Source of the DNA: Deltaproteobacteria bacterium
Lineage (GTDB): Bacteria; UBA10199; DSSB01; JACPFA01
Reading direction: 5' to 3'
NCBI GenBank assembly: GCA_016183235.1
Contig: JACPFA010000033.1
Location: forward strand, 62,001 to 126,000
Length of the DNA: 64,000 nucleotides
Notes under the pieces: model-generated
Seen by the model: the letters and a program-made list of their open reading frames with translations, nothing else
What the model was told of the DNA's origin: nothing
Database searches by the model: none
Shown: positions 1 to 53,524 of the stretch, in pieces
Position numbering within the stretch: the stretch's first letter is position 1
Layout of the letters: every line of letters begins with the position of its first letter
Made by a program: the position numbers and the translations under genes

Positions 1-1040
1 AATAAAACAACAGGGCCCAAGGTGGTACGAACGTTCAAAGCTAGTTGGCTAAGTCCCCCATCGGTTTCGCTGTCACGCCTCATCCCGGTTAAACCCATTT
101 GGGTAAAATAATCTAATAATGAAAATCGAATATCTGCATTGAGTTGATAGCCATCTAATTCACTCTCACGCATTAAAAGGCCAGCTACCGTCATGACCTC
201 AAGACGGTAGGCACCTGGAAAATCAAAAGACAAGGCTCCGGCCAGATCCACCTGATGTCGAGGTAAGCTGGTTGGCCCATCCGCTACTTTTTCTCCATCC
301 ACATAGACCTGACCCCCTGGAAATAAAACTTCTAAGGGATGCCCCTTTAGTAAAGACGCTAAAGGGTTTTGATCGTATTGATAAGCCACCCAAACTCGCC
401 ACGTGGAATCGGTAAGAACGGTCAATCGAGCCGCCCCTTTAGTGACGCTTTCTGACAAGGGATCGATGTCAACCATACCTTGAAGGGAACCAAGGCCTGG
501 ATGAGAATAAGCACCGCCTAGACCAACATCCACAGTTTCTAGGTCTGGAAAGGGCTTGCGGTAATCAGCTCGAGTGTAAAAGATTAACCCATCGATGGGT
601 CGCAGAGAAAGTTTTGCCCCCACGCTAGGAGAATCATCATGAACTTCAGAATAAAGATCGACAGGCCAACCTACATACGCATCAAACCCAAGCCAAGGCG
701 CGATAACAAACCGCCCGGCTACCCCATCGAGCGATAAAGGCGCACCATGGTCTAATAAAAAAAGCCGCCCGGCTTGAACTGCTCCCGATCTCCAAGAATA
801 TTGGGCATAAGCTTGATCGACAAAAAGTTTATAATTCCCCTCTCCACGATTATCTTCGGTCACTCCGCCTATTCTTAAAAAAGCCTTGGCTTTCTCATAT
901 AAAGCTACCCAACCATCAAAGTCAAAAAGCCCCGCATAGTGATCTTCTTGTAAAAAAGAACCCACCCGGGGATTGAGATTGTAAGTAATGACTGCAGGCT
1001 CCGAAGTTGCTCCAACCGCTAATGGCCCTTTATCCCCCAT
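1..1040 (-). CDS. Outer-membrane beta-barrel protein, partial (3' end outside window)
   Basis: The minus strand is open from an ATG at 1040-1038 to the left edge (about 346 codons seen). The translation alternates polar and hydrophobic residues with many aromatic strand ends, as in outer-membrane barrels; no enzyme motif is seen. The ATG overlaps the last 11 nt of the multihaem cytochrome gene and is preceded by AGGAG at good spacing, so translational coupling is likely. Odd point: the N-terminus (MGDKGPLAVGATSEP) is not a signal peptide although a barrel must be exported. Loss of one G from the GGGGG tract at the junction would fuse this frame to the cytochrome. A porin partner of the cytochrome in electron transfer across the outer membrane is an inference from neighbourhood. 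Confidence 0.7.
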   Translation of the reverse strand, partial: MGDKGPLAVGATSEPAVITYNLNPRVGSFLQEDHYAGLFDFDGWVALYEKAKAFLRIGGVTEDNRGEGNYKLFVDQAYAQYSWRSGAVQAGRLFLLDHGAPLSLDGVAGRFVIAPWLGFDAYVGWPVDLYSEVHDDSPSVGAKLSLRPIDGLIFYTRADYRKPFPDLETVDVGLGGAYSHPGLGSLQGMVDIDPLSESVTKGAARLTVLTDSTWRVWVAYQYDQNPLASLLKGHPLEVLFPGGQVYVDGEKVADGPTSLPRHQVDLAGALSFDFPGAYRLEVMTVAGLLMRESELDGYQLNADIRFSLLDYFTQMGLTGMRRDSETDGGLSQLALNVRTTLGPVVL

Positions 1041-3900
1041 GGTGACACTCCTGACATACAGGTTCTTGATAAGTAGTTTTGGGCTCATGGGCCTGGTTGT
1101 GACAAAGGCCCAAATTTCCCTTACTACACGTGTTTTGAATGGCTGGAATGGTGCGGGTATCGTAATGAATATTTTCGGCGGGGCTCATGCCTTCTGCATT
1201 CACAAATAAAGGGCTGAAGTGCATAAACGCAGTATGCCCAGGGCTATTAGTAGATACCCAAGGGGAATTATCATAAGACACATGGGGATAGGCGGTGTGA
1301 CATTCATAACAAGAAGGCACGCCTTGCAAATTATTCAGAGCAAGGTCGGCTTTGCTTTGTTGGTTCGAGCTAAACCCCACAACCTCACCGTGACATTTCA
1401 AGCAATTTTGATTAGACTTCGAATAATAAAATCCGTGGCCCTCACCTTTGGCCCATTGCCCAACATGGGTCACCCCTTCTTTTGAATCATGGCAGCCGAT
1501 GCGTTCACAGTTAAGTTTAGGGCGTACCCCTTCATCGGTGCGATCATAATCTTCGCCGTGACAGGTGCTGCAAACTTTTGCATCGGTTTTGCGTTCTTTT
1601 AAGAAAGTAAGCGCATGTTCGGTTTTAGGCGCAGGGCTCAACCAATCACTTTGCCGATGCGGATATAAGGCATGGCATTCATAACAAGAAGGTGCCAGGT
1701 CACTACCTTCAAAAGAAGAACCATGACAATTGACCGTATCACACGATTGCTTACCATCATCGTAGGCCTCTGCACCATGCACCTTGCCCTTTTCCCAACG
1801 GTTGTTGCCATTGTGACCTTGAATGTGCGGATAATTTTCGTGGCATTTGAAACAAGAAATACCTGAGTTGCCTCCCTTAAGATCATCGCCATGACAATTG
1901 CTGCATTTTATTTGCCCTTCATTATGACACAGGCGGCAAGAATCTGGTTTTCCATCAACCTTGGTTAGTTCGAACGTGTAGGTCCCATGTTTAACTTTGG
2001 CATCCCAATTGGGAATATGTGGATAGCTAGGGTGACAGCTTTGGCAACTCACTTGCGTTACCCCACCCGAATAATCACCCCCGTGACAAAGCCGACATTC
2101 GGCCATCTTATCTTCGGCATTACTCGTTTTAATATACTGCGCATGCCCTTCAAACTTAGGCCAGTGTTCGAGAGTCGCTGCTGGATCTATTTTTGCTGAT
2201 TTGTGTTTCAGAAAACTGGGGTGACATTCTTGACAAGTTTTGGCCCCCTCTGGGAACTGATCTAAATTAGAACCATGGCAGGTTTTGCAACGATCAATAT
2301 CGGCTCTGGCTGCCTGCCCATGCGATAACTTCCAACCTTGATTCCATGGGCTATGGGGATAGTCTTCGTGGCAACTTCGACAATCGGGGCCTTTAGTCTT
2401 TGGCCCTGGAATGAGATTATCACCGTGGCATCGCACCGTGGCACAAGAATTAGCTGTATTCGCTAATACAAAATCTTTATGAATATTGGCTTCCCCAGCA
2501 TTAGGGCCCCAATTGGCGGCGTGCGGATATTCTTCGTGACAGCCATAACAACTGGGGTTTTGCCCCCCTTTAAGATCGTCGCCGTGGCATTGAGTACACT
2601 CACTCTTGTCGTGCGACAGAGTATAGTCGCCGTGAAATTCATATAGCTTCCACAAACTGGTATCTTCTAGAGTGTAAAGGCCTGTCTTGGTAGCATGTGG
2701 ATAAGAGGGATGACACGTAAAACAGTTTTTACCGTTGGGTTTAACTTTTGCTAAATCAAAACCATGGCAGCCCTGACAGGTGATAACATTTTTATTTAAG
2801 TCATCACGCACCACTTCATCGTGGGAATTTTTCCAATCATTAAGGTGGGGATAGTTGTGACAAGAAAAACAATTTTTATCCCCCAAAACTTTTTTGAAAT
2901 CATCCCCGTGGCATTGTTGACATATCGCAGGCCCAAATTCTTGATAAGCCTGGCGATGATCTGTTTTCCAACCTTTGTCATGGGGGAAAACACCCTCGTG
3001 ACATCCTTTACAAGAAACGCCTGAAAGCCCCCCTTCTAATTTGGTGCCGTGGCAAGATGTCGCACATTTTTCCTGTCGCACTTTAGGATCGGCTGATAGC
3101 GCACCATGCTGATCAGAACTTACCCAATTTTCTGGATGAGGATAGGTGCCGTGACAAGAAAAACAATTTTTGCTCGGCACTTCATTGCCTTGAAAATTTT
3201 CCCCATGACAGACTTGGCATTTTTCTTTGGCGGCTTTTTCAGCTTGTTGGCCGTGAATGTTTGCCAATTTCCAGTTTCCTTCATGAGGGAAAACCCCTTC
3301 ATGACAACTTTTGCAAGCAACCCCCGAAAGACCCCCTTCTAATTTGCTGCCATGACAAGAAGTAGCACACTTCTCTTGTCTTACCTGTGGATCAATAACC
3401 AATGCACCGTGTTGATCAGAATTTTTCCAATTTTCTGGATGAGGATAGGTATCGTGACAAGAAAAACAATTTTTACTCGGCACTTCATTGCCTTGAAAAT
3501 TTTCCCCATGACAGCCTTGGCATTGTTCTTTGGCGGCTTTTTCAGCTTGTTGACCGTGAACGTTTGCTAATTCCCAATTTTCTTCATGCGGAAATAAACT
3601 GTGACAACTTTTACAATCGGGTGCCCCTTGCCGCATCTTATGACAGGCCAAACACACCTCCCCTAGGTTATCGTTTAAAAATTCTTGCCCGTGCATGGAG
3701 GGACTAACCCAATCAGCGGGGTGAGGATAAGGAAGCTCAAGAGAAACATCTAGGTTTGGGTCAAGACTCGCTGGGGGGTTGGACTCGTTTAAAAGGTCTT
3801 CTAAAGTGTAGGTGTCCCTTCCACAACCTGCTAAAAAAAGCAGGATGGTACAAAAAAGAAGAGTAAAAAATTGTCTATCTGGATATGGAAGTAAATCCAT
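1030..3900 (-). CDS. Multihaem c-type cytochrome lipoprotein (about 27 CxxCH plus variant sites)
   Basis: A 956-residue protein with a hydrophobic leader and lipobox ending LAGC (Cys26), so exported and probably lipid-anchored. I count about 27 CxxCH haem motifs plus several with wider spacing: CATSCH twice, CATVRCH, CDTVNCH, CERIGCH and one very wide C-x7-CH near the end. The motifs sit in a recurring unit in which a haem site is followed by YPH..W and then HG, repeated through the protein, so it grew by internal duplication. Two blocks around residues 110-290 are near copies. Likely role is long-range electron conduction at the cell envelope; acceptor unknown. The gene overlaps the downstream barrel gene by 11 nt and may form a conduit with it. 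Confidence 0.9.
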   Translation of the reverse strand: MDLLPYPDRQFFTLLFCTILLFLAGCGRDTYTLEDLLNESNPPASLDPNLDVSLELPYPHPADWVSPSMHGQEFLNDNLGEVCLACHKMRQGAPDCKSCHSLFPHEENWELANVHGQQAEKAAKEQCQGCHGENFQGNEVPSKNCFSCHDTYPHPENWKNSDQHGALVIDPQVRQEKCATSCHGSKLEGGLSGVACKSCHEGVFPHEGNWKLANIHGQQAEKAAKEKCQVCHGENFQGNEVPSKNCFSCHGTYPHPENWVSSDQHGALSADPKVRQEKCATSCHGTKLEGGLSGVSCKGCHEGVFPHDKGWKTDHRQAYQEFGPAICQQCHGDDFKKVLGDKNCFSCHNYPHLNDWKNSHDEVVRDDLNKNVITCQGCHGFDLAKVKPNGKNCFTCHPSYPHATKTGLYTLEDTSLWKLYEFHGDYTLSHDKSECTQCHGDDLKGGQNPSCYGCHEEYPHAANWGPNAGEANIHKDFVLANTANSCATVRCHGDNLIPGPKTKGPDCRSCHEDYPHSPWNQGWKLSHGQAARADIDRCKTCHGSNLDQFPEGAKTCQECHPSFLKHKSAKIDPAATLEHWPKFEGHAQYIKTSNAEDKMAECRLCHGGDYSGGVTQVSCQSCHPSYPHIPNWDAKVKHGTYTFELTKVDGKPDSCRLCHNEGQIKCSNCHGDDLKGGNSGISCFKCHENYPHIQGHNGNNRWEKGKVHGAEAYDDGKQSCDTVNCHGSSFEGSDLAPSCYECHALYPHRQSDWLSPAPKTEHALTFLKERKTDAKVCSTCHGEDYDRTDEGVRPKLNCERIGCHDSKEGVTHVGQWAKGEGHGFYYSKSNQNCLKCHGEVVGFSSNQQSKADLALNNLQGVPSCYECHTAYPHVSYDNSPWVSTNSPGHTAFMHFSPLFVNAEGMSPAENIHYDTRTIPAIQNTCSKGNLGLCHNQAHEPKTTYQEPVCQECHHGG

Positions 3901-12383: not shown

Positions 12384-15300
12384 ATGAAAGTGGGGCCGAA
12401 GTTGCCTACCATTGATCAACAATATGAAATCATTAAAGAATTGGGCTCAGGCCTACAATCTACGGTTTTCTTGGTCAAAAAAACAAACCAATGCCTTGCC
12501 TTAAAGCTTTTTAAAGAGGCCCTGCCTGGTTACGATGTTAATGCGACCCTCGAAGCGATTAAGGCGGAGTGCCAAGTTTTAAAACAGCTCCATCACCCTG
12601 GCATCGGAAATTTAGAAGAATTTGGCTATGACCCCAACCGGCAACAATATTATTTAGTTTCAGAATATATTGAAGGCAATAATCTCTACGAGGCCACCCA
12701 CGAAGCCCATTTTGAAACCGTTGAAAATCTTTTCATTCAGGCCTTACGTGCCCTAGCTTATATCCACAGTCGAAAAATTTTTCACTGCGATTTAAAACCT
12801 GAAAATATTCGGGTTCAGCCTTCCGGGGTTTTGAAAATGATCGACTTCGGATTGAGTGGTTTAAAAACCAACAACACTTTTTTTGGTACCCCGGCTTATG
12901 TAGCACCCGAATTAGCCTTTGGCTTTGCACCCAACAGTCGCTCTGATCTTTATAGTTTAGCAGTTACTTTTTATGAATGTATCTTACGCATCAATCCGTT
13001 TCGCAGCCCTACTTTAACCGAAACTTTAGGGCTGCAACAATCGCTACATCCCACTGAATTAAGAAAAATCAATGTTCACATTCCGGAATATTTTTCTACT
13101 TTGATTGCCAGGCTCATGGCAAAAAATCCCAGCCGCCGCCCAGGTAGTGCGGCTTTAACTCTTAAGGCGCTCAATCAACTCTCTGGCAAACAAATCCCTT
13201 TAGAAACCGAAGCCACTCTGCAAAGCTATCTCCCGACCGACACCGAACTCATCGGGCGCAAAGAAATCTTACGTTCTTTTGAAAATATTTTAGCAACGCC
13301 CCAGAACTCTACCCTAATTTTATGGGGTGAAAGGGGCAGCGGGAAAACGCGCCTCTTAAAAGAATTAAAATTTTTAGCCCAACTCAAAGGGATTTTTACC
13401 CAAAGTTTGAGTAAACCTGCCTTGCCTTTAAAAGAAGAAGCTTGTGTCTTATTTTTCGACAATGCAACTCCTGATGCTTTAAAAAACCTCCACTTACTAG
13501 TTTTAAGTTTTCGCTTTCCTCTTTTGATCGTGGCCACCTGTCACCTGGCCCCCGAAGAAATCGAAGGCTACAAATTTGAACTGCCTCCCTTTACACCTGA
13601 TGAAATCAAACAATACCTCACCTCACTCACGGGCTTAAGCGATCCTCCGCTTCAATTATGTCAGGAATTACAAAAGCGAACCCATGGCAATCCTTTATTC
13701 ATCACGCATCTTTTACAAGAACTCATCACTCAAAAGCGCCTTTTTGATGACATGGGGCGATGGTCTAAAGATACCTTTGAAGATTTGGGAGTGGAATTTG
13801 AAAACCTTCCCCCCCCTGAACAAATGAAACACTACTTTGACAAACTTTTAACTCATCTTAAACCGGATGAGCTTCTCATCTTAAAGCTCATGGCTATTCA
13901 TCCTAGCTCGGTTAATCAAAAAGACCTACGAGCACTTCTTCCCAACTCAGAGCCTCTATTACTTAATCTATTGGGAAAAGACCTCTTAGCAAGACTTGAT
14001 TTCACCTACCACTTTACTAATCCACTTTTAAAAACCCACTTACAAAGCAAACTAAAAGATGAAGCCCCTTCGCTACATCAACGTTGGTTAAAAATAATTA
14101 AACCAACCGATCCTACTACTTATCTCCATCATGCAGGTAGAATTGAAAACAACGAAGCCGCAGCCAAAGAGCTTCTCTCATTGGCAGAACATCAATTAAA
14201 AGAGAGCCAGCTCGATAACGCCTTACAAAATATTCAACTCGCTTTATCTTACAAGCTCCAAGAGGTTGAACTGCAAGCTAAATTACTTAACTTACAGGGA
14301 ATTATTTACGAAAAACTTAATCTTTTTACTCAAGCCCTCCAAACCTTTGACCAAATTCGTTCGCTCTTACCCAAACTTAAAAATCTGGCCTCTAACCTAC
14401 CTTGGAGAATCGAATTACTAGAAAAAATCGGCGTAACTTACTTGCGGGGTGAGCAACTCGAAAAAGCCAAAGAATGTTTTGTGGCAGGGCTTGCCTTACT
14501 CGAAGATAAAGATGATTTTTTAACCAGGCAATTGCTCTTTAAAAATTATTTGGGTCGAGTGCGAATTAAAGAGGGTAACCTCCAAGAGGCGCAAAACATT
14601 TTTCAAACCACCCAAGATATTTGGGCAAAACTGCCACAAGACCGCCAAGCCCAAGTGGTTAACAATGATTTAGGCAATGTGCTGCTCATGCAGCAAAACT
14701 TTTCAGCTGGCCTACAACAATTTCAATCAGATTTAATCTTCTTTAAAAAAATTGCCCATGCCCAACTGATTGCTCGCACCCTCTATAATTTGGGAGAAAC
14801 TTATTTTCACTTAAAAGATTATGAAAACACCATTCATTGTTTGAAAGAATGCGTGGAACGCTCCCATGAAATAAAAAATTATGAATTGTTACTCAGGGCC
14901 TACAATGGCCTAGGTAATGTTTATAATGTAAAAAACGACCTACAGGAGAGTCTGCATTATTACTCCAGAGCATTAAGAATCGCTGAAAAAACCCATGAGT
15001 TCCAAAGCCAAGCTGCCATTTCGACCAACATGGGGAATATTCAAAACCAATTGAACCAACTCGAAGAAGCCTTGGTGCTATTGAAGGGCGCCATTAACAT
15101 TATAAAAAGTTTAGGCGGACGAACCGCCCATGAACAATATTTTGAAATTCGTGCCCTGGTTGAATTAGCCGATGTGTACTTAAAGCTAGAACGATGGGAA
15201 GAAAGCCGCGATTGTTTGCGCGATGCCTTGCACTTAGCTGAAAATTCTGAAGCCAACCGCAATCAAATTTTTTGGATCAAACTCGGGCAATTGAAATATT

Positions 15301-17273
15301 CATTGCTCCGCCAAGAGACCGATCGAGTCAAAGAATTGCAACATGAGTTAACTCAAAGCGCTACCGAAGAATCTCAACATAAAGAAATTAAAACTCTGCT
15401 AGAAAACTTTTCTAAACCACCTGAAAAAAAATCGATACCTGCACCCATGGGTCACAAAAAAAGGGATACCCGCATGGAAACTCTAACCGAACTAGAATAT
15501 CAAAAATTATTAAGCCTGATTAAATTGATTAATTCTGAACACGATCTTGATTTTGTCTTAAAATCAATTCTTCACCATGCCTTGGAATTGTCTGGCGCTG
15601 AAAGAGGCTTAATTTTATTACTCAATGAATCTGATCAATTAGAAATAAAATGTTGGGTCAATATGGAGGTCGACCCTTCTTTAGAACAAATTTCAACCAC
15701 CATTGCTCAAAAAGCCATCGATAATGGGCAAACAATTAAAACCGACAACGCCTACGATGACGAACGCTTTAATCAATACCAGTCGGTTTTAGTTTTAAAA
15801 CTACGGTCGATTCTTTGCTTGCCCATTTACTCTCGTAACCGCACGATTGGGGTGTTGTATCTCGACAACAAATTTCGAGCCAATGTGTTTGGCAAGGTTA
15901 ATCAAATACTGCTGGAAGCTTTTTGCGATCAAACCGGTATTGCTATTGAAAATGCTCACCTCTTTAAAAAACTACAAGCCGCGACTCTCCAGTTAGAAGA
16001 CAAGCTGAAAAAAACTCAAGACGAAGTGGAGCATTATCAAAATTTAATTCAAGAAGGTGGGGCGGGGCCTACTCGCTATAGTTACAAAAATATTGTGTCT
16101 TCTACCAAAGCCATGCATGAAATTTTTCAAGTCATGGATAAGGTGACCAACACGAATCTCAATGTTTTTATCCAAGGAGAAACCGGAACCGGAAAAGAAC
16201 TCATCGCCAAGGCCCTCCACTACAACCATAAATCTCGTGCTGACAAACGGTTTGTGGCCATTAACTGTGGGGCCATTCCTGAAAATTTAATTGAAAGTGA
16301 ATTGTTTGGTCATAAGGCAGGGGCGTTTACGGGGGCAATCAAAGATAAAAAAGGATTATTTTTAGAGGCCCACGGCGGCACTATCTTTTTAGATGAAATC
16401 GCCGATCTTCCTTTGAACTTGCAGGTTAAATTGCTTCGGGTTTTACAAGAAAATGAAATCACCCCGCTAGGTGGCTCCCAACCAGTTAAGGTTGATGCCA
16501 GGGTGCTATGTGCCTCGCATAAAGATTTAAACCAACTTACAAGTCTTGGGAAATTTAGAGAAGATCTTTATTACCGGCTTTGCCAAATCAAATTAACCCT
16601 GCCACCCCTAAGAGAGCGAAAAGAAGATATCCCACTATTGGTAGAAAAATTTGTGGGGGATTATGCTGAACAACACAAGCTTAAACAATCCCCTAAAATT
16701 AGTAGCGCTTTCATGAAAATCTTGATGGAACACGCTTGGCCAGGCAACATTCGCGAATTAGAGAATATTGTTCATGTCTCTTGTGCACTTTCTGATGGCA
16801 AAGTCTTAACGCCCGAGTGTCTACCCAGTCATTTTCAAATTCGTAACCAAACCGATCAAACCATCGACCCAACCCGCTACGTTGAATCTCAAAAAATTAA
16901 ACCCGTGGTCGAAACCCCCATTGATACCCATAACCCTTACGACCCTAACTTAGCTTGGCAAGATTATGAACGGCTTGTCTTTGCCAAGGCCTATGCCCAG
17001 TGCAATTTTAACCCCCAAGCAACAGCTAAAAGCCTGGATGTGTCTATTGCAACCATCTATAAAAAAATTAAAGAATTTGGATTGTCGAACCCTCACGCCG
17101 CAGTCTTCCAAGAAAAATTTCATTACGACACTCAGAAAAATCTTAAAGACTATCTAGAGTGCATCGTCAAAGCAGCCCATCTAGCTTCAGGAGAACGCCC
17201 TTACACCGCCATCAAATGGCTAAAAATTTCTCAGGGGCATTATTATAAAGTACTTAAAGGTTTAAGGGAATAA
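12384..17273 (+). CDS. Ser/Thr kinase - ATPase - TPR - GAF - sigma-54 activator - HTH fusion regulator
   Basis: 1629 residues. Kinase at about 14-280: HCDLKPEN (catalytic Asp136), IDFGLSG, GTPAYVAPE. P-loop ATPase with GERGSGKT at about 315. TPR repeats about 600-1000 (LEKAKECFVAGLALLE, YFHLKDYENTIHCLKE). GAF about 1040-1190. Sigma-54 AAA+ domain with GETGTGKE (1265), GAFTGA (1313-1318) and GGTIFLDEIAD, then a Fis-type HTH near 1560-1600 (ATAKSLDVSIATIYKKI) and a further HTH-like segment at the end (AIKWLKISQGHYYKVLKG). GAFTGA being intact means it can contact sigma-54. It should activate sigma-54 promoters in response to an unknown ligand and phosphorylation. Related kinase-GAF-sigma-54 fusions are known in Myxococcota. 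Monocistronic. Confidence 0.92.
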   Translation: MKVGPKLPTIDQQYEIIKELGSGLQSTVFLVKKTNQCLALKLFKEALPGYDVNATLEAIKAECQVLKQLHHPGIGNLEEFGYDPNRQQYYLVSEYIEGNNLYEATHEAHFETVENLFIQALRALAYIHSRKIFHCDLKPENIRVQPSGVLKMIDFGLSGLKTNNTFFGTPAYVAPELAFGFAPNSRSDLYSLAVTFYECILRINPFRSPTLTETLGLQQSLHPTELRKINVHIPEYFSTLIARLMAKNPSRRPGSAALTLKALNQLSGKQIPLETEATLQSYLPTDTELIGRKEILRSFENILATPQNSTLILWGERGSGKTRLLKELKFLAQLKGIFTQSLSKPALPLKEEACVLFFDNATPDALKNLHLLVLSFRFPLLIVATCHLAPEEIEGYKFELPPFTPDEIKQYLTSLTGLSDPPLQLCQELQKRTHGNPLFITHLLQELITQKRLFDDMGRWSKDTFEDLGVEFENLPPPEQMKHYFDKLLTHLKPDELLILKLMAIHPSSVNQKDLRALLPNSEPLLLNLLGKDLLARLDFTYHFTNPLLKTHLQSKLKDEAPSLHQRWLKIIKPTDPTTYLHHAGRIENNEAAAKELLSLAEHQLKESQLDNALQNIQLALSYKLQEVELQAKLLNLQGIIYEKLNLFTQALQTFDQIRSLLPKLKNLASNLPWRIELLEKIGVTYLRGEQLEKAKECFVAGLALLEDKDDFLTRQLLFKNYLGRVRIKEGNLQEAQNIFQTTQDIWAKLPQDRQAQVVNNDLGNVLLMQQNFSAGLQQFQSDLIFFKKIAHAQLIARTLYNLGETYFHLKDYENTIHCLKECVERSHEIKNYELLLRAYNGLGNVYNVKNDLQESLHYYSRALRIAEKTHEFQSQAAISTNMGNIQNQLNQLEEALVLLKGAINIIKSLGGRTAHEQYFEIRALVELADVYLKLERWEESRDCLRDALHLAENSEANRNQIFWIKLGQLKYSLLRQETDRVKELQHELTQSATEESQHKEIKTLLENFSKPPEKKSIPAPMGHKKRDTRMETLTELEYQKLLSLIKLINSEHDLDFVLKSILHHALELSGAERGLILLLNESDQLEIKCWVNMEVDPSLEQISTTIAQKAIDNGQTIKTDNAYDDERFNQYQSVLVLKLRSILCLPIYSRNRTIGVLYLDNKFRANVFGKVNQILLEAFCDQTGIAIENAHLFKKLQAATLQLEDKLKKTQDEVEHYQNLIQEGGAGPTRYSYKNIVSSTKAMHEIFQVMDKVTNTNLNVFIQGETGTGKELIAKALHYNHKSRADKRFVAINCGAIPENLIESELFGHKAGAFTGAIKDKKGLFLEAHGGTIFLDEIADLPLNLQVKLLRVLQENEITPLGGSQPVKVDARVLCASHKDLNQLTSLGKFREDLYYRLCQIKLTLPPLRERKEDIPLLVEKFVGDYAEQHKLKQSPKISSAFMKILMEHAWPGNIRELENIVHVSCALSDGKVLTPECLPSHFQIRNQTDQTIDPTRYVESQKIKPVVETPIDTHNPYDPNLAWQDYERLVFAKAYAQCNFNPQATAKSLDVSIATIYKKIKEFGLSNPHAAVFQEKFHYDTQKNLKDYLECIVKAAHLASGERPYTAIKWLKISQGHYYKVLKGLRE

Positions 17274-17309: not shown

Positions 17310-19301
17310 TTATATTTTTAACAAAGAACCAATCTTAACTGTAGAACTTTTCATTCCATTGGTCTTCATAATTTTTTGAACAGTGGTGCCATTGGTTCGA
17401 GCAATCTCAATAAGAGTATCCCCGTGTTTAACCCGATAATGAGCTTTTACATTTTTGGTTTTTGCTTTGGCCACTATTTTCGGTAATTGGACAACAGGGC
17501 CAGTTTTGGCATCAGAAGGAATGGTCAGAACCGTCCCATATTTTAAATTTTTAGCGGATTTGCCATTGGCCTGCATCAATGCGTTTAAGTTGGTATCATA
17601 ACGTTTGGCAATAAGGGTTAACGTCTCGCCCTTTTTCACTTTATGATAAATTTTACGTGCTGGCTTGGAAGTATTAACCGTTGGCTTGGTTGTAAGCGAG
17701 CCCGTATTGGCCTCGCTCAATACAATCGGATGGGTTGATTCTAACTGAGCTACCGCATTTTTAAGCTCGTTATCTAAAACGGCCGGGCTGACCTGTACCT
17801 GTTCTGCATCAAAATCAGCCAAAGCTAAATTGCCCGAGGCTTCTGTTGAGACAACAGAGAGAGGAGCAGGATTACTGGCAACCTCAGAAGTTTTTTCTTC
17901 GGTTGCAATGGGATTATTGTCGTTTAAATTGAGCGAAGCAAATTTCTGCACATTTTCTGGATTGACCTCTTGCTTAAGTTTGTCTTTTTTAGAGGCCAAC
18001 AACACCGATTCTACTTTTTTCTTACCACCACCCGTAGCATTAATACCACTGGGGTCATAACCCGAAGCCAATCCATAAAGGCGTCTGGCCCGCAATGCCG
18101 CAAGATCATCCCGAGTAGAAGCCCCACTTAAACTCCAACCCGAACCTTCGCCCGCTTGAGGAATTAACAAATCAGTCCCTCGTTTAAGGTGCTTGATGGT
18201 TTTTTTAGAATTATTGGCAACAATATCTCGGGTAGAAACCCCATAGCGTTTAGCGACTGATTTAAGCGTGTCCCCTTTGGCAACTTCATAACGGACCATA
18301 CGACGACTTGGACGGTTGCGGTCACGCACTCGATCGAGATTATGAGCCACTTTGACTGCCGTCCCTCTGGGAACTTTAACCTGATAACTATAAGGCGGTG
18401 TGACGCCCCGATAAAGCTCGGGGTTTAATAGATAAACTAAATCTTCCTCTACCCCAGCAGCTTGGGCAATGTTATCTAAGCCTATTGATTCGCTCGTACG
18501 CATTTTTTCAGTTGCTAAAGGGACTTGAGATTCAATGTTGGTGAAGCCATATTTATGAGGATTTTTACCAACAATGGCCGCGGCAAGAATTTTAGGCACA
18601 TAATCTTTGGTTTCTGGCCGAAAATAAGAACCTTCACAGAGTTCCCAAAAATTGGTGGTCCCATATTTTTCAATGGCTCGTTTTACCTTGCCCGCACCGG
18701 CATTATAGGCTGCAAAAGCTAGGTACCAATCCCCAAATTCTTTATGCAAATCGGCCAAATGCCGAAAAGCCGCATGGGTAGATTTTTCAATGTCTCGCCG
18801 CTCATCAATATAGTAGTCGACCTGCAACCCATAGTTGGCCCCGGTAGAACGGATGAATTGCCACGGCCCCACCGCACTGGCCCAACTGGTGGCTCGGGTA
18901 TTAAGCCCACTTTCGATCAAACTCAAAAAAGCAATATCTTTGGGCAAACCATATTGAGAGGCCACTTGAAAATAATAGGGAAAAAACCGCCCCGAACGAG
19001 CCAGTGAACGATTAAAGAAACCACGCCCCGACCCTGTAAAATAATCGACCCATTTGTGGACTCGGTCATTTAAAACAACCGGGATATCAAAAGAACGATT
19101 CGTGCCATAACGAACTTTGCCCTTCACCTTGGCATGATTGGTTTCATTGACACTATAAATAAGGTCATCAATATTTTTATAATGATGAACGGGTTTGCGA
19201 TGGGTATTTTTAGTGTGTTTAGGTGCCGATGCGCAAGCCGCAAACAACCCAACTATAGGAATTAATAGAAAAAAAAGAGGGATCCGCCTTAGGCTTGCCA
19301 T
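17310..19301 (-). CDS. mltD: Membrane-bound lytic murein transglycosylase D-like lipoprotein with three LysM domains
   Basis: 663 residues. Lipobox FAAC (Cys23). The transglycosylase domain at about 95-270 has FLSLIESGLNTRATS (catalytic Glu), AVGPWQFIRSTG, YYIDERRDIEKSTHAA and FAAYNAGAGKVKRAI, the family 1D signature. LysM repeats follow: YEVAKGDTLKSVAKRYGVS, then after a long low-complexity linker YHKVKKGETLTLIAKRYDT and YRVKHGDTLIEIARTNG at the C-terminus. Cleaves glycan strands to anhydromuropeptides at the outer membrane's inner face, with LysM holding peptidoglycan. Longer than E. coli MltD mainly through the linker. Confidence 0.93.
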   Translation of the reverse strand: MASLRRIPLFFLLIPIVGLFAACASAPKHTKNTHRKPVHHYKNIDDLIYSVNETNHAKVKGKVRYGTNRSFDIPVVLNDRVHKWVDYFTGSGRGFFNRSLARSGRFFPYYFQVASQYGLPKDIAFLSLIESGLNTRATSWASAVGPWQFIRSTGANYGLQVDYYIDERRDIEKSTHAAFRHLADLHKEFGDWYLAFAAYNAGAGKVKRAIEKYGTTNFWELCEGSYFRPETKDYVPKILAAAIVGKNPHKYGFTNIESQVPLATEKMRTSESIGLDNIAQAAGVEEDLVYLLNPELYRGVTPPYSYQVKVPRGTAVKVAHNLDRVRDRNRPSRRMVRYEVAKGDTLKSVAKRYGVSTRDIVANNSKKTIKHLKRGTDLLIPQAGEGSGWSLSGASTRDDLAALRARRLYGLASGYDPSGINATGGGKKKVESVLLASKKDKLKQEVNPENVQKFASLNLNDNNPIATEEKTSEVASNPAPLSVVSTEASGNLALADFDAEQVQVSPAVLDNELKNAVAQLESTHPIVLSEANTGSLTTKPTVNTSKPARKIYHKVKKGETLTLIAKRYDTNLNALMQANGKSAKNLKYGTVLTIPSDAKTGPVVQLPKIVAKAKTKNVKAHYRVKHGDTLIEIARTNGTTVQKIMKTNGMKSSTVKIGSLLKI

Positions 19302-19509
19302 AGTTTAATAACTTTCTCTAAAGTTTAAAATTAATCCCTATTTAACAGGTCCACTCTTTTAAGAAAATCGATCAGTCCCAGGATTCGCTTCGCATTATAC
19401 GAAATTCAGTAAAAGCCTGTCAAACAAATTGCTCATTCTGCCCCACTTTGTACAAACTTTTCAGAAGCCCCTATTTTGTTACTAAAAAAATTGACAGTCC
19501 TGCACCCCT

Positions 19510-22074
19510 ATGCTGGAACTTCGACTTATGCCAGGGCAAACCACCGCTAAACGAGTCGAAACCAAACACGTTGTTTTTAATTTTGATCGCACGAAGTTCG
19601 TCCAAGAATTATTATCGTTGGGGCTCAAAGCCATTACGCCCAAGGTAGCAAAAAAGATCTGCCAAGAAGTTGAATTACATCTCCAATCTTACCAAGCCAC
19701 TTCGATCACCTCCGAGTTGATCAGCAATGTGGTACGTTTCAAATTAGAAGAAATGGGAATTATCCCCTATCGTCCACAAAAAACAAAAGTTACGCGAATT
19801 CCTCCCCTTAAAAAAGAAGCCCCTCGCCAAATCCCTGAACCCGAAGAACCCACCGTCGTTGCAGCGGTGTGGAATGAAGATGCTGCGCTAGAAAAGTTAG
19901 TCGAATTGCCTGATAAAAAAGAAACCCCCGAAGTTAATGAACCTATTATTTTACCACCTAAAGTTTCTTTAAGTTTACCTGAACGCAGCCGTCATTATTT
20001 AGAAAAGCAGATTTTAGATGAAACCCACGCAAGTAGCTTAGAAACTACCTTCTACAAACTTGCGGAAAAAATAAGTGGTGGCGATGAACTAACCGCCTTA
20101 ACCTTTTATAACCTCATGGCCACGGGAGAATTTTTCCCTCACCTTTCGGTTTTTAAATCCAAAGATCACAAACCGATGCTCAACCCCCTTTGGGGTCAGG
20201 TCACAGGAGAATTAGTAGAAAGTCTTCATCATATTCAAAATGCCATTGAACTTTTACAAAACAAAGTAGAATTTTCTATTTTTTTAAACCTAGAAGACGA
20301 AGCTTCGCCTCCAGATCGCTCTGCTAATTTTCATTGGTTAAAAATTTTTGATAGCACAGCAAGCCCATTCCCTTCAGGCCCACACCAAGTAGTGTTTCCT
20401 ATTGATCATCCTGAAATTGAAGATTTCATCCGATTAATTTCCACAACTCCATTTGAAAAAGTAAAACCTCAATTTGCCTTATCCAGCGAATTTTTACAGG
20501 CAGTAGCCGCAGATACCTTTTTTGCGCTTAAACGACCCAGTAGCGGAAAAACAGTTAAATTAATCCCGGCACGCAAAATTTATGATGAACTTGTCAATTT
20601 AGCCAAATCGCAAGTCACCAGTATAGGCGTGCTTTTTCTCGACAACCTACCCCCTGAATTTCATGCCATACCCGCCTATATGGTATCGCCCGGCTTCACC
20701 CTTTATTCAGGGCTTAGCATGGGTGCCCTCAATCTTTTTAAGGCGATTGAAGGTCAAGAGATTAACTGGCAAAAATTACGCAGGATGATTCATGCTAGTG
20801 TGCAATTTTTAGATAATCTGGTTGATGTTGCGATGGTAGGCCTTGCCAATTTTGCAAGCCTAGAGGCCAACTTACAACAAAATCGAAGTATTGCTTTAGC
20901 GCCCGTTGGGCTCGCTGATCTTTTAATTGAACTTGAAATCCCTTATGGCTCGGAGCGCGCTTTAGAACTGACCGATCAGCTCATGGATTTTATTCGATTA
21001 GAGGCACTTGAAGCCAGCCGAGCCCTAGCCGAGAAAAAAGGCCCTTATTTAGGTTGGAACCCTGACAACAAAGGAAAACCTTTGCGTAATCAAAATATTT
21101 TGGCCATGGTTGAATCACCTGAATGGAGCAAGATTTTAGGGATCGAAGGGGGCATGCAACCCTTGCAAACCTTGACTTTGCAAGAAGGTTCGCATCAAGA
21201 AGAAAAACTTTTTTCAATCTATCCCCCTTTGGCTAAGGCCTGTTACGAACAAAATGTTTTTACACCCGAATTGGTTTCTCAATTACAAAGAGAAAATTCG
21301 ATTCAAGGCATTGTAGGCATTACTTCTGATATCAAAGAAATTTTTGTAACCCGTCAAGATATTGGGGTTGATGCCTTGCTTAAGAGTTTTGAAGTGATTG
21401 CTAAGTATTGTGATTATTCTTGGGGCTTATCGGTTTCATTCCCTTCAACCTGTCAAACCCAAGCCCTACGCCAGATACTAGCCCGTGCCTATTTAGGAAA
21501 GCTAGATCGTTTAGAATTTAAAATTGCTATACCAGAAGACTTCGAATTGGAAGAAACCGAAATCGCTACCGTGGCAGAAGTTACTGCTCCCATCAAAACC
21601 CCTCAAAGCTTACCAACCTTTTTGTCTTATGTAAGACCAACATTGTTAGAAGGTTACACCCTTCATTTACCTTCAACCGAGCAAGAATTTTATGTGACCC
21701 TTAATTTATTAGACAAAGAGCTCAAAGAAATCCTTGCCCATACCAGCGAAGTCGAAGATCACTTTGGCCCCAACCAACTGAATGCCTTCACTCAACTTAT
21801 CAATCTTATTTTGGAAGAAGGCTTAGATCTTAAAAAAATTCTAGAGCGCCTGTCTGCCTCTGAAAGTAAAGTTAGTTTTTTTGCCAAACAACTTAACAAA
21901 ACCCTCGAGCAATTTCTCAACCAAGACCCGGTTACTAAACATTGGGCACTTAAGACGGCCCCACCCCCCACTACCCATACTTATCAAGAAGTAAGTTTTG
22001 GAACTTATCGCTATAAAACCTGGCTTTGCACGGCCTGCCAAACCCCCCATTATGCCCGCATTTCCAATTCCTAA
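19510..22074 (+). CDS. Degenerate class II ribonucleotide reductase paralogue with ATP-cone-like N-terminus (probable pseudoenzyme)
   Basis: 854 residues. Residues about 16-85 resemble an ATP-cone (VVFNFDRTKFVQELLSLGL, TSELISNVVRFKLEEMG). The remainder follows the RNR large-subunit order: FYNLMATGEFFPHLSV, HQVVFPIDHPEIEDFI, GVLFLDN, and RSIALAPVGLADLLIELEIP then SERALELTDQLMDF, compared with [20 protein letters not shown] in the window's true NrdJ. The catalytic pieces are gone: where NPCSE should be there is SPGFT (393-397), the N-terminal active-site Cys (QCSACF in NrdJ) has no counterpart, and the PTGT loop reads VESPEWSKILG. It ends with LCTACQTPH, one CxxC pair. The reading frame is long and intact, so it is not simply decaying. 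A regulatory role is inference. Confidence 0.7.
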   Translation: MLELRLMPGQTTAKRVETKHVVFNFDRTKFVQELLSLGLKAITPKVAKKICQEVELHLQSYQATSITSELISNVVRFKLEEMGIIPYRPQKTKVTRIPPLKKEAPRQIPEPEEPTVVAAVWNEDAALEKLVELPDKKETPEVNEPIILPPKVSLSLPERSRHYLEKQILDETHASSLETTFYKLAEKISGGDELTALTFYNLMATGEFFPHLSVFKSKDHKPMLNPLWGQVTGELVESLHHIQNAIELLQNKVEFSIFLNLEDEASPPDRSANFHWLKIFDSTASPFPSGPHQVVFPIDHPEIEDFIRLISTTPFEKVKPQFALSSEFLQAVAADTFFALKRPSSGKTVKLIPARKIYDELVNLAKSQVTSIGVLFLDNLPPEFHAIPAYMVSPGFTLYSGLSMGALNLFKAIEGQEINWQKLRRMIHASVQFLDNLVDVAMVGLANFASLEANLQQNRSIALAPVGLADLLIELEIPYGSERALELTDQLMDFIRLEALEASRALAEKKGPYLGWNPDNKGKPLRNQNILAMVESPEWSKILGIEGGMQPLQTLTLQEGSHQEEKLFSIYPPLAKACYEQNVFTPELVSQLQRENSIQGIVGITSDIKEIFVTRQDIGVDALLKSFEVIAKYCDYSWGLSVSFPSTCQTQALRQILARAYLGKLDRLEFKIAIPEDFELEETEIATVAEVTAPIKTPQSLPTFLSYVRPTLLEGYTLHLPSTEQEFYVTLNLLDKELKEILAHTSEVEDHFGPNQLNAFTQLINLILEEGLDLKKILERLSASESKVSFFAKQLNKTLEQFLNQDPVTKHWALKTAPPPTTHTYQEVSFGTYRYKTWLCTACQTPHYARISNS

Positions 22075-22180: not shown

Positions 22181-22948
22181 ATGCAAAAATCAAATTTCTC
22201 ATTTAAATGGTTCTCTTTTCTGGGCATGAGTCTCGTGCTGTTGGGATTTTCCACCCAGGCAATAGCTCAACTACCCTACCCTGGTATTTTTGTTTATCCC
22301 CAAGAATCGGAAGGCATATCCGATGCTGAAGCAGCGCTGATCGAATCGAGTCAACCTGATATTTTAAAGAAATACAGCAATATAAAGTTCATTCGTTTTC
22401 CCAGTGACAATGGCCTTGAAAGCGAAGTTCATCAAGAACCTTACCAAGCTGATGGTGTCGTCATGGATATGGATGGAATGCAAGCGGATTTAAATGTTGG
22501 TCATGTGGCAGGTTATGTAGTCAAGGTTGAGCATCCAAAAGATGTTTTGAACCAATACAAACCCAATGGTAAAATTGAGAAAGTTGATGGTTGCCAAGAA
22601 TTCCCCAACCCGAGTGAAGCTCTGAAAGAGTACCAAGCCAAAAACTGCCCCCCTGCAGAAAAAGACCCTGCGGCTGCGGATGAACCTGACAACCAAGTCC
22701 AAGCAACTTCAACCCCTGTCGAGGGAACCGCTACTAATACCGTTGGTTCTGACGTGACCAATCCATCAGACCCATCCGATGAAGCTACAGAAGAAATAAC
22801 CGATGAATTTGATGCTGCCGAGCCGGATAGCATTATTAGCCAAGGCGGCGGTTGCGCTTTTGGCCCTGCCCTACTTTCCACGAGTTTTTCATCTTTCTGG
22901 ATGTTGACCCCCCTTACCCTGATTTTCTTGCGCTTCCTCCGCAGATAA
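22181..22948 (+). CDS. Secreted protein with C-terminal Gly-Gly-Cys/TM/Arg sorting signal
   Basis: 255 residues: N-terminal signal peptide (ending STQAIAQ), a globular part of about 130 residues of no recognised family, an acidic Pro/Thr/Glu-rich linker, and a tail GGGCAFGP + hydrophobic segment + RFLRR. That tail has the layout of MYXO-CTERM-type sorting signals (Cys just before a membrane helix, Arg cluster at the end). In such systems a membrane protease cleaves near the Cys and the protein ends up at the cell surface; here that is inference. The next gene has the same tail. An AT-rich gap of about 105 nt precedes the start. Confidence 0.75.
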   Translation: MQKSNFSFKWFSFLGMSLVLLGFSTQAIAQLPYPGIFVYPQESEGISDAEAALIESSQPDILKKYSNIKFIRFPSDNGLESEVHQEPYQADGVVMDMDGMQADLNVGHVAGYVVKVEHPKDVLNQYKPNGKIEKVDGCQEFPNPSEALKEYQAKNCPPAEKDPAAADEPDNQVQATSTPVEGTATNTVGSDVTNPSDPSDEATEEITDEFDAAEPDSIISQGGGCAFGPALLSTSFSSFWMLTPLTLIFLRFLRR

Positions 22949-23065
22949 CTATTTAAAATCATTAATATTTACATTTTTATACACTTTTTTTGTCATAATA
23001 GTGAACTTTAGTACATACTATAGCCGATAAACTAATTAGGCACATTTAAACTTTTGGGGTGTGAA

Positions 23066-23710
23066 ATGAAATCACTTAAAATTTTATCAACCACAATCGG
23101 TTTGATCTTAATGATAGGTTTAGGAACCACAGCTCGGAGTGAAGTATTCAAGGCTGTCAACTTAGAACAAGCAAAGAACATAAGAAACGCACTCGTTCAA
23201 GATTACGCCAATGATTATCCCTGCTCTTACAGAACGATTAGCACCATTGACCAGTTTTTTGAACTCACACTTATAGCTTTTGTAGCTCCTGGGGAAGCGC
23301 CACCCGCCAAAGCAGGCAACAAAAAACTTAAAGCCATTTATGGTGGCTATGCTGATTGTCTTCGTGCACAACAACAAGAACCCGCTCCAACTGAAGAACC
23401 TTCTCCTGAACCAACCGAACAGCCCATAGCCAGCCCTACTGCTAGCCCTGAGGTTGAAGTTATTGCTGAAGATACCACAATCACTGGGACTACCGAAGCA
23501 ACGGATAATTCAACAGCCCCAGCTTATACGACTGGCTCGACTGCCCCTACTTCTCTGGAAGCAGGTTTAACACCTAATACGGTTGAACTAGCCATTGAAG
23601 GCACCGGTGGCTGTTCCTTAAACTCCAATGTTGTGGGCTCACCCAGCACCTTCTTGTGGATGTTCTCAAGTTTAATTTTAGTCGTCGCTAGCTGGATTCG
23701 CCGCAAATAA
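23066..23710 (+). CDS. Secreted protein with C-terminal Gly-Gly-Cys/TM/Arg sorting signal (second of pair)
   Basis: 214 residues from the ATG at 23066, chosen for the GGGGTGTG just upstream; a TTG at 23054 would cut into that site. Signal peptide to about residue 26 (TTARS), a short Cys-containing domain (YPCSYRT, YADCLRAQQ), a Pro/Thr/Glu linker with APTEEPSPEPTEQP, and a tail GTGGCSLNS + hydrophobic segment + SWIRRK. Same architecture as the preceding gene, but the N-terminal domains are not obviously related. No family recognised. A separate 118-nt gap with its own AT-rich promoter-like sequence lies upstream. Confidence 0.72.
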   Translation: MKSLKILSTTIGLILMIGLGTTARSEVFKAVNLEQAKNIRNALVQDYANDYPCSYRTISTIDQFFELTLIAFVAPGEAPPAKAGNKKLKAIYGGYADCLRAQQQEPAPTEEPSPEPTEQPIASPTASPEVEVIAEDTTITGTTEATDNSTAPAYTTGSTAPTSLEAGLTPNTVELAIEGTGGCSLNSNVVGSPSTFLWMFSSLILVVASWIRRK

Positions 23711-49190: not shown

Positions 49191-49244
49191 TTGACACACT
49201 ACATCTTGTGGTTTAGGCTGTAGCTCAACCACTACATATTGTGT
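49191..49244 (+). promoter_or_regulatory. nrdJ promoter with two NrdR boxes
   Basis: ACACTACATCTTGTGG (49196-49211) and CCACTACATATTGTGT (49229-49244) match the NrdR box pattern and are 33 nt apart, about three helical turns. TTGACA at 49191 and TAGGCT at 49214 (17-nt spacer) make a plausible promoter overlapped by the first box. NrdR represses RNR genes when dATP is high. No nrdR gene is in the window. The rest of the gap from 48920 to 49190 is AT-rich and shows nothing I can name. Confidence 0.75.
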
Positions 49245-49270
49245 TTTTGTTGGGAAGGAGGACTCTATTT

Positions 49271-52200
49271 ATGGCAACCAAAACAGCTATCCGTCAAACT
49301 TCGGTTCGTAACCGTAAACAAACTTTAGACGTAGCCCAAAAGGGCCTTAGCGTTAGGCGTTTATTTACTCGAGCGGGGGTTGATGCTTACGAAAATATCA
49401 ACTTTGTTCAACGTCAGTCCACTATTATTGACCCTGACGGATCCGTAGTTTTTCAAATGGATGCCGCTGAAGTTCCAGAAACTTGGAGTCAATTGGCCAC
49501 CGATATCTTGGTCCATAAATATTTTCGTAAACGCGGTGTTCCTGTAACCGGTGGCGAAAATTCGGCTAAACAAGTTTGCCATCGTATTGCCCATGCCATT
49601 CGCCAAGCCGGTGAAGCCTTTGGGGGATATTTCAAAGACGAGGCCGAAGCAGAAAGTTTTGAACAAGAACTTAAACACATTCTCATTTCCCAGAAAGGCG
49701 CCTTCAACTCTCCGGTTTGGTTCAACTGTGGGTTGTGGCACGAATATGGCATTGCGGGGAGTGGGGGTAATTTTGCTTGGAATCCAGAGACACGACAAAT
49801 TGAAATGATGGCTAATTCTTACCAAGCTCCCCAATGTTCGGCTTGTTTTATTCAATCGGTTGATGATGACCTGATGAGTATTTTTGATCTCATCAAAAGT
49901 GAAGCTCGATTATTTAAATACGGCTCGGGCACGGGCACGAATTTTTCAAAAGTTCGTGGCAGACAAGAACGGTTATCAGGTGGCGGCACTTCGTCGGGTC
50001 TCATGAGTTTTCTTGAAGTCTTAGATAAGGGTGCTGGTGCTACCAAAAGTGGTGGCACTACCCGGCGCGCTGCCAAAATGGTCTGCCTCGATATGGACCA
50101 CCCTGAAATATTAGATTTTATTAACTGGAAGGTTCGCGAAGAAGACAAGGCCAAGGCCCTCATTGCAGCCGGCTATCCCAGTGATTTTAATAGCGAGGCC
50201 TACAAAACTGTTTCTGGGCAAAATTCTAACAATTCATTGCGCGTAAACGATGAATTTATGCAAAAGGCTTTGAGTGGGGGGCAATGGAACACAACTTTTC
50301 GCACCACAGGTGAAGTTTGCGAAAGCTATGATGCCAGCCACTTGTTAGAACAAACTTGCACGGCCGCCTGGCGCTGCGCTGACCCTGGCTTACAATACGA
50401 CTCCACCATTAATAAATGGCACACCAGCAAAAATTCGGGCCGCATTAACGCAAGCAATCCGTGTGTGACTGGAGACACCGTTGTTGCCACAACTGAAGGG
50501 CTCAAGCCTATTATAGAACTTGTTGGGAAATCGGCAGATATTTTAAGTTTTGATGGGCGGATCGTCCATACTTCAGAAGTTTTCGCCACAGGGTTCAAAC
50601 CTGTTTTTGAACTTAAAACTCAAAGTGGTTATACACTCAAGTTGACTGAAGATCATAAAGTTTGGACTGTCAACCGTGGTGATGTCCCTGCCATAGAACT
50701 AAAAGATACCGACCAGTTTGTTTTAGTTCCAGGGCACTTTGGCACCACTCACTTAGAACAAAAAATGGCTGAATGGATTGGCCTTTGTGTTGGAGATGGC
50801 TGCAAGGCCAAAGATGCCCAAGGGCTTATCACAGTCACCATGGCAAGTGAAGAGAATGAAATTTTACAAGAATATGTCGATTATTTAAATACTCTCAAAG
50901 CAGATCGAAAAATTGCCGGTGTTCGATATACTGAGACAGGAGTTCGCACAGCCACTTCGGCACAAGTTATCAAAGAAGTGGTCGATAATTACGCAGTCCT
51001 TGATGAAGGTTCCGCTAAAAAAAGATTCGCCATCGAAGCATTTCAACTCGACAAATCAAGTGTTGCAGCCATTTTACGTGGTCTATTTACCACCGATGGC
51101 ACGGTCGCAAACTATGGAGAAAAATCACAATACGTTGCCCTTGATTCGACGAGTCTTGTCCTACTTCAACAAGTTCAAAAAATGCTTCTTTCTTTTGGTA
51201 TCAAGTCAAAGATTTACGAAAACCGCCGGGCAGGAAAACTCAACGCCCTTCTACCTGACGGAAAAGGCAACGCAAAAATCTATCCCGTACAAGAGATCCA
51301 TTCATTAAGAATCAGTCGTAGCTCGCGGATTTTGTTTGAACAATTTATTGGGTTCCATCCCCGCTCACAAAAGTCAAAGGCATTGCAAGAACTCAATCAA
51401 AAGGTCGGTGTCTATCAAGACCATTTAATAGATACTTTTAAATCTCTCACTCCCCTCGGTATTCAAAAAGTTTATGATTTACGAGAGCCTCTAACTCACC
51501 ATTTTGTTGCCAACGGTTTGCTAGTCCATAATTGTTCTGAATATATGTTTTTAGACGACACGGCCTGCAATTTGGCATCGGTTAACTTGAGCAAATTTTT
51601 AGATGAAGCAGGTAATTGGGATGTTGAAGGTTACCGCCATACAGCTCGCATGCTCTTCATCGCCCAAGAAATTTTGGTGGATTTTAGTTCTTACCCCACT
51701 TCTAAAATTGCCCTCAATAGCCATGACTATCGACCCTTAGGTTTGGGTTATGCCAACCTGGGTTCTTGTTTGATGCGATTAGGCATCCCCTACGATTCAG
51801 AAGCCGGCCGTGCCATTGCGGCTGCCCTCACGGCCATTCTTTGTGGACATGCTTACAAAACTAGTAGCGAGATGGCCGCTAATAAAGGCCCCTTCCCAGG
51901 CTACGAAAAAAATCAAGAACCCATGGTAGAGGTCATGAATTTGCACCGTGATCACGCTTACAAAATTGATGAGCGGCATTGCCCAAAAGATTTATTAAAA
52001 GCCGCTCATGAAGATTGGGACGCCGCGGTAGAATTGGGCGAAAAATTTGGCTATCGCAATGCCCAGGCCACGGTTTTGGCGCCCACTGGCACGATTGGTT
52101 TATTGATGGATTGTGACACCACAGGGATTGAACCCGATTTTTCTTTGGTGAAATTTAAAAAGCTGGCCGGCGGCGGTTATTTTAAGATTGTCAACCAATC

Positions 52201-53524
52201 GATTCCGGCGGCTTTAAAAAAGTTGGGTTATTCGGCGCGTGAAATTGCTGATATTGTCACTTATATTCGTGGCACATCTTCACTCCGCAATGCCCCGTTC
52301 ATCAATTTTGAAACTTTAAAGCAAAAAGGCTTTACTGAAGCTGAGTTAGATAAAATCGAATCTAAACTCGAAGGGGTGTTTAACTTAAGCCAAGCGTTTT
52401 CAGTATTTAACATCGGAGAAGAAACTCTTGCCCGTTTAGGATTTCAAAAATCCAAAACCTCAGACGCCAACTTTAATTTACTCAAAAGTTTAAGTTTTAC
52501 CGATGAACAAATCGAAGCAGCTGAAGTTGTTATTTGTGGCACCATGACCATTGAAGGGGCTCCTCACTTGAATCCTGAGCATTTGCCCATTTTTGATTGT
52601 GCCAATAAATGCGGCAAAAAAGGCAAACGCTTTCTCTTACCGATGAGTCATGTGAAAATGATGGCCGCAACGCAGCCCTTTATTTCGGGGGCCATTTCTA
52701 AAACGGTGAATCTTCCTCATGAAGCCACTGTTGAAGATATCCGCCAAATTTATGTAGAAGGTTGGAAGTTGGGCCTAAAGGCCATTGCCCTTTATCGCGA
52801 TGGTTGTAAAGCCAGCCAGCCTTTATCTTCGGGTACAGAGCAAAAAGAAAAGACGGAGCCGGCGCCTGAAGTCATTGCACCCAAACCACTGGAACGAAAA
52901 CGTCTTCCGCTCAAGCGCCGTGGTTTCACACAAGAGGCGCGGGTTGGCGGGCATAAGGTTTATTTACGCACCGGCGAATATGAAGATGGTGCCTTGGGTG
53001 AAATTTTTATCGACATGCACAAAGAAGGTGCTGCCTATCGCAGCATGATGAACTGCTTTGCCATTGCGGTTTCCTTAGGCTTGCAATACGGGGTCCCACT
53101 CAAAGAATTTGTAGATGTATTTACCTTTACCCGTTTTGAACCTCAAGGCTCGGTAGATCATCCTAATATTAAATTTGCCACCTCCATCATCGATTATATT
53201 TTCCGAGTGATCGGCTTGGAATATATGGGCCGAACCGACTTTGTGCAGGTGAAACCTGAATCGGTTACCCCCACCAGTATTGAGCCAGTTCAGTCGCTGC
53301 CGCCTGCAGCAGCAACTGAAAGTTCTCCAAAACTAGAATTAATCCAGGGCCAAAAAGAAGAAGACCCACAATTAGCCGCAAATAGTTTGGGCAAGAGTTT
53401 GAACAGTCAACTTTCTACCATGATGGGTGATGCCCCCTTCTGCGACAGTTGTGGTCACATCACGGTGCGCAATGGGGCCTGCTATAAATGCCTGAATTGC
53501 GGCAATTCGATGGGCTGTTCATAA
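49271..53524 (+). CDS. nrdJ: Vitamin B12-dependent (class II) ribonucleotide reductase with intein
   Basis: 1417 residues before splicing, about 1060 after. Start at ATG 49271 because AAGGAGG precedes it; an in-frame ATG at 49241 lies inside the second NrdR box. Catalytic features: first active-site Cys in [17 protein letters not shown] (interrupted by the intein between Pro and Cys), [22 protein letters not shown], and a C-terminal Cys-rich tail FCDSCGH...[13 protein letters not shown] that re-reduces the active site. Makes dNTPs using adenosylcobalamin with or without oxygen. No ATP-cone is seen at its own N-terminus. A degenerate paralogue with an ATP-cone-like region is at 19510-22074. 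Confidence 0.96.
50462..51532 (+). mobile_element. Intein with LAGLIDADG homing endonuclease in nrdJ
   Basis: 357 residues from Cys (CVTGDTVV, block A) to the terminal His-Asn ([10 protein letters not shown]), followed by Cys of the extein. Block B is seen as [11 protein letters not shown]. Two DOD-type motifs, [10 protein letters not shown] and [10 protein letters not shown], mark the endonuclease. The insertion point is immediately before the catalytic Cys of NPCSEY, so the reductase is inactive until the intein is removed. All splice-junction residues are present. Confidence 0.95.

Follow-up and report, generated by a model that had tools for sequence, protein, structure and literature searches.

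A candidate pseudoenzyme family of class II ribonucleotide reductase origin in one uncultured bacterial phylum

Gene organisation of the locus

The window analysed here is a 64,000-nt stretch of contig JACPFA010000033.1 (assembly GCA_016183235.1). On its plus strand, an open reading frame at positions 19510–22074 encodes a homologue of ribonucleotide reductase (RNR), designated pseudo-RNR. As the earlier note on this sequence had stated, the frame of 854 codons is intact and free of stops. Translation likely starts at Met7 (ATG at 19528), since the orthologues in families f2 and f5 begin with MxxSxAVKK at this point (bacterial families are numbered throughout, f1 being that of the window). Codon usage is normal and matches that of the neighbouring genes.

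Divergent from pseudo-RNR lies a minus-strand gene for a LysM/SLT lytic transglycosylase (MltD-like; 17310–19301), a neighbour kept in f1, f2 (G001 and G002) and f5; the next gene, on the plus strand, encodes a kinase-TPR-GAF-sigma54 regulator (12384–17273) and is kept in f1 and f2. A minus-strand consensus promoter of the sigma-70 type (19394–19423; 12/12, 18-nt spacer) faces the MltD-like gene. On the other side, 22181–22948 and 23054–23710 encode two adjoining secreted-looking proteins with a GGC-hydrophobic-RR tail that resembles a sorting signal; neither has an NCBIfam match, and Pfam gave nothing significant for 22181–22948. Elsewhere in the window, a 956-aa protein with many cytochrome c3/c7-type matches (1030–3900) is probably a multihaem cytochrome.

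RNR is an essential enzyme under tight control. The window also carries a large, catalytically intact NrdJ (49241–53524, plus strand), which an intein (TIGR01445, LAGLIDADG_3) splits at the catalytic Cys (NPC / CSEYM). No ATP-cone match to this NrdJ was found, in agreement with the earlier description of it as having no N-terminal ATP-cone. Two exact NrdR-box-like matches, at 49197 and 49230, lie upstream of the gene and are the only ones in the genome; by the consensus, we take them to be NrdR boxes. NrdR is present in 42 of the 46 genomes of the window's phylum (the same 46 make up its class). No NrdR-box-like site was found upstream of pseudo-RNR, and one match with two mismatches lies inside its frame. 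Beyond co-occurrence, no genetic link of pseudo-RNR to an intact RNR was detected, and the large NrdJ is found also in genomes without the pseudo-RNR gene.

Pseudo-RNR is an NrdJ homologue without the catalytic motifs

The protein matches the Pfam RNR barrel (E = 7.5e-31), and its top named family is NCBIfam PRK08665, the vitamin-B12-dependent NrdJ (E = 1.6e-60). Its scores fall under the NCBIfam NrdJ cut-offs (205 versus 961 bits and 121 versus 400 bits), and its nearest solved relative is the Thermotoga maritima NrdJ 1xje (E = 1.8e-15). PRK06948 ('RNR-like protein') was rejected as its identity at 44 bits versus a cut-off of 906. Alignment and modelling place what is left of the all-alpha N-terminal domain of RNR at about residues 156–216 (19975–20157, like all features of the protein on the plus strand), and Pfam Ribonuc_red_lgN is detected in five of nine family members. 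The best conserved segment of the barrel (FLDN ... GLADLL ... IPYGS) spans residues 405–515 (20722–21054). A TSCPD domain follows at about residues 709–805 (21634–21924), with a Pfam value of 6.3e-5 that is barely above the cut-off; it goes undetected in three of the nine family members scanned. Near the C-terminus, the sequence CTAC (22027–22038) is a possible remnant of the CxxC in the NrdJ tail.

The catalytic roles of NPCGE, the redox Cys, PTGT and the specificity loops are established for RNR. When pseudo-RNR was aligned with 23 catalytically intact RNRs, the landmarks listed in the earlier note were found in the expected order (HQVVFPIDHPEIEDFI, residues 292–307; SPGFT, 393–397; IALAPVGLADLL, 461–472), the first of them, at 20383–20430, corresponding to the strand that follows loop 2. 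The alignment also bears out the losses described there: SPGFT (20686–20700) replaces NPCGE at the thiyl-Cys loop, with both the thiyl Cys and the Glu lost, the first redox Cys (SACFVLP) has no counterpart, and the PTGT phosphate loop is replaced by SPEW (SPEWSK, 21115–21132). Further losses are the second redox Cys, which has become Leu (ACNLGSIN to GLSMGALN), the GGGTG strand, loop 1 and most of loop 2. Because the catalytic motifs are missing from the sequence, pseudo-RNR is very unlikely to be able to produce deoxynucleotides in the way known for RNRs, and an intact nucleotide site has probably gone as well. A different reaction carried out in the old barrel would fit the predicted retention of the fold. 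However, conservation in the active-site loops is among the lowest in the protein, and the invariant columns of the family are structural RNR residues, with no new invariant Cys or His and no new polar or metal-binding positions among them, which makes a neofunctionalised enzyme a very improbable outcome.

A structure model of pseudo-RNR, built from an alignment with 37 viral NrdJs plus the relative L054, has a pLDDT of 74.7 and a pTM of 0.63 and contains the RNR barrel, much of which is modelled at a pLDDT above 90. The best PDB matches of the model are to T. maritima NrdJ, at a TM-score of 0.68–0.70 by target length and about 0.5 by query length. An AlphaFold model based on no more than two family rows had a pLDDT of 35 and did not recover the fold. 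Since the fold fails without the aligned rows of intact NrdJs, the model can confirm only compatibility with the RNR fold.

The N-terminal domain has a cone-like helical core

A profile match and the models place a cone-like domain at about residues 22–86 (19573–19767), where an ATP-cone-like domain had been proposed. The Pfam ATP-cone match (PF03477) has a value of 0.007, below the cut-off, and covers profile positions 12–66 of 88 only. Both structure models give three helices and no strands, residues 1–20 being of low confidence. In hhalign comparisons, the domain aligned with cap-less cones at 1.7e-13 and with full ATP-cones at 2.8e-5. Judged by their sequences, the proteins carrying the cap-less cones are probably class III NrdD; Pfam reported the ATP-cone only for a 150-aa N-terminal piece of one of them (L189). 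Taken together, the below-cut-off Pfam match, the modelled helices and the hhalign results indicate that the helical core is present and homologous, and to this extent the proposal of a cone stands. It does not extend to an intact three-stranded beta-cap, which in a functional cone holds ATP, as the VxKRxG motif of the cap is absent in register from all nine aligned family members. The cone also lacks its C-terminal part. A VKK-like motif lies 9–22 residues ahead of the first cone helix in G001, G002, G003, G004, G010 and G024, with AKR in the window protein; it might be a displaced cap remnant that keeps nucleotide binding possible. In RNRs with several cones, the ligand residues of the second and third are likewise reported to be variable (PMC9669993).

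The earlier note had suggested that the paralogue could supply allosteric sensing in trans, its ATP-cone or specificity site regulating the cone-less NrdJ. The cone homology, the lack of a cone in the window NrdJ and the VKK/AKR motif are in keeping with this suggestion, and PMC5794259 offers a precedent in which RNR is controlled by ATP-cones on the radical-generating subunit. However, a motif out of register, a truncated cone without strands in either model, and nearest relatives that are the cap-less cones of probable NrdD all speak against a sensor. Because this cap-less domain is combined with the loss of the RNR specificity loops, we find sensing in trans unsupported and consider it improbable. 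We likewise found no evidence for a repurposed nucleotide-binding protein, the other role put forward in that note, as no intact nucleotide site is recognisable.

Distribution and genomic context of the family

A profile of the cone-like domain detected 11 of the 46 genomes, from seven families, and each time an RNR homologue carries the domain N-terminally. Of these 11 copies, nine are dead and one is partly decayed; the last has the catalytic residues in a frame-shifted gene. All readable copies in f1, f2, f5, f9, f15 and f18 are dead, having lost the catalytic, substrate-phosphate and specificity-loop motifs. In f13, the copy of G019 is partly decayed (DPCSGQ; PTGT lost), that of G034 keeps the catalytic residues and has a frameshift and a short deletion at loop 1, either real or an assembly error, and that of G039 keeps them in an open frame that does not include the cone. 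In G003 the gene is divided between two contigs; G007 has a C-terminal fragment of it, on a short contig, and no cone was seen there. When the family profile A4 was searched against genome contigs, it found one locus, on a 5263-base contig; the contig of the G004 copy is likewise 5263 bases long. Among 385 genomes scanned with the cone profile, matches outside the phylum were all weaker (best 8.6e-11). Nine of these outside loci were read; they have no NPCxE, and most resemble class III NrdD in sequence. Viral contigs yielded no member of the family, which, as far as searched, is restricted to one uncultured bacterial phylum.

A gene that we read as mutY lies directly upstream of the copies in f9, f13 (G034 and G039), f15 and f18, whereas G019 and G004 have neither this gene nor an MltD-like neighbour within the stretch read. 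Such adjacency, together with the divergent MltD-like pairing kept in f1, f2 and f5, would suit a scaffold acting outside dNTP metabolism, for example in cell-wall turnover or in mutY-dependent repair; this is a narrower form of the reading of pseudo-RNR as a non-catalytic binding protein. However, the neighbourhoods are of two different kinds, and the adjacency to mutY looks inherited rather than functional because copies with catalytic residues also sit there. We therefore regard a scaffold of this type as unlikely.

Phylogenetically, the nine cone copies that are dead or partly so group together (96/99), and the mutY-locus NrdJs of G034 and G039 join them (95/95). The branches are long, that of the window protein being the longest, and the inner order is unsure. 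Since f13 as a single clade is not rejected (p-AU 0.088), activity may have been lost once or several times; in a 29-row tree from which the f21 copies were left out, the minimum number of changes of state is two. The ancestor of the family would have been an active NrdJ, because two mutY-locus genomes keep the catalytic residues. Relatives with the catalytic Cys, which had been named as evidence against a dead paralogue, thus exist at that locus; they represent the ancestral state, and their existence does not imply that the window protein is active. Outside the window, its genome has a second small NrdJ (L038; G000, C33:1659–3314) in which the same residues are lost (SPYGEM, GVIYGSIN), and the f2 relatives of L038 are intact. 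In f21 genomes, decayed RNR homologues without the cone-like domain lie beside smc (L087:2161–3618 in G044 and L088:2702–3673 in G042).

Selection has shifted from the catalytic loops to other regions

Selection was measured on congeneric relatives, as the window gene has no close relative for a dN/dS of its own. Between G002 and G007, the dN/dS of pseudo-RNR is 0.22 (NG86) or 0.12 (YN00); the intact small NrdJ gives 0.04 and 0.02. For G002 and G003, pseudo-RNR has 0.25–0.28 (dS above 1) and the large NrdJ 0.12, and in the distant comparison with G001 the value for pseudo-RNR is 0.51. Pseudo-RNR is constrained, but more loosely than an enzyme, and the constraint is weak relative to an active RNR because the members share only 21–25% identity. 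Purifying selection keeps the protein folded in these genus-level relatives and, by extension, presumably in the window organism.

Mean pairwise identity falls from 0.88 among intact copies to 0.14 among dead ones in the NPCGE loop, and from 0.67 to 0.15 in the region of loops 1 and 2, whereas segment 405–515 goes only from 0.52 to 0.39. Among the dead copies, the cone is likewise at 0.39, compared with 0.14–0.25 for other parts of the RNR body. Constraint has thus left the catalytic loops and now lies in the cone-like domain and in residues 405–515.

These data bear on whether pseudo-RNR could be a decaying relic, that is, a redundant and functionless NrdJ heading for loss. The long branches, the undetected TSCPD domain in three of nine members, the motif-less second copy L038 and the absence of the gene from many families of the phylum would be expected of a relic. 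The dN/dS values of 0.12–0.28 among close relatives together with the normal codon usage argue against one, as do the open full-length frames across seven families, the neighbourhoods kept between families and a cone-like domain that is more conserved than most of the remaining protein. We judge a relic to be improbable.

Discussion

Pseudo-RNR is best explained as a member of a phylum-restricted pseudoenzyme family derived from class II RNR (NrdJ, PRK08665 type). It would descend from a NrdJ that was still active, had a cap-less cone-like domain at its N-terminus and was encoded next to mutY; catalysis would have been lost at a time when the cells depended on the larger NrdJ. Since all catalytic residues are lost and the genes are nevertheless kept intact across the phylum, the family probably has a non-enzymatic role of a kind not yet described. 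We lean slightly towards a non-catalytic, selectively maintained binding protein with no named partner, whose interaction surface may be formed by the cone-like domain and the conserved helical segment of residues 405–515. More tentatively, it could be a binding or regulatory subunit for which the likeliest partner is the remaining NrdJ or another protein of dNTP or DNA metabolism. The more specific picture of a nucleotide-blind regulatory subunit that binds the remaining NrdJ, contacting it with the cone-like domain and the outer helices, is rather doubtful; if it were true, RNR would be controlled by a regulator that itself has no allosteric nucleotide site.

The intermediate stages (residues kept, partly decayed, dead), found partly at one locus, trace the conversion of a radical enzyme into a non-enzyme. 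The family may also bear on the function of the cone-like domain in class II RNRs, a role that has been called unclear (PMC9669993). The earlier note knew of no RNR pseudoenzyme of this kind. For bacteria, we too found no description in the open-access papers searched, but those of betaherpesviruses are well known (PMC5469499, PMC11772975) and are, as far as we found, the only other dead RNRs reported.

With T. maritima NrdJ and the families PRK08665 and TIGR02504, pseudo-RNR shares common descent, the predicted barrel fold and the TSCPD domain. It differs from class II NrdJ in having no redox or thiyl Cys, NPCxE, PTGT, GGGTG, loop 1 or full loop 2, and in scoring far under the family cut-offs. 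With the ATP-cone (PF03477) and the inner cones of RNRs it has the helical core in common, the closest profile being that of the cap-less cones of probable NrdD; as its VxKRxG beta-cap is not in register, nucleotide binding would not be expected. The large-subunit homologues of betaherpesviruses (HCMV UL45, MCMV M45, HHV-6B U28) are inactive and have a non-enzymatic, protein-binding role (PMC5469499, PMC11772975). Pseudo-RNR resembles them in its homology to the RNR large subunit, in the absence of catalytic residues and in being kept under selection, as measured on congeners. However, the betaherpesvirus proteins are viral and act in host signalling, whereas the family described here is of class II, bacterial, and present alongside an intact RNR in the same cell.
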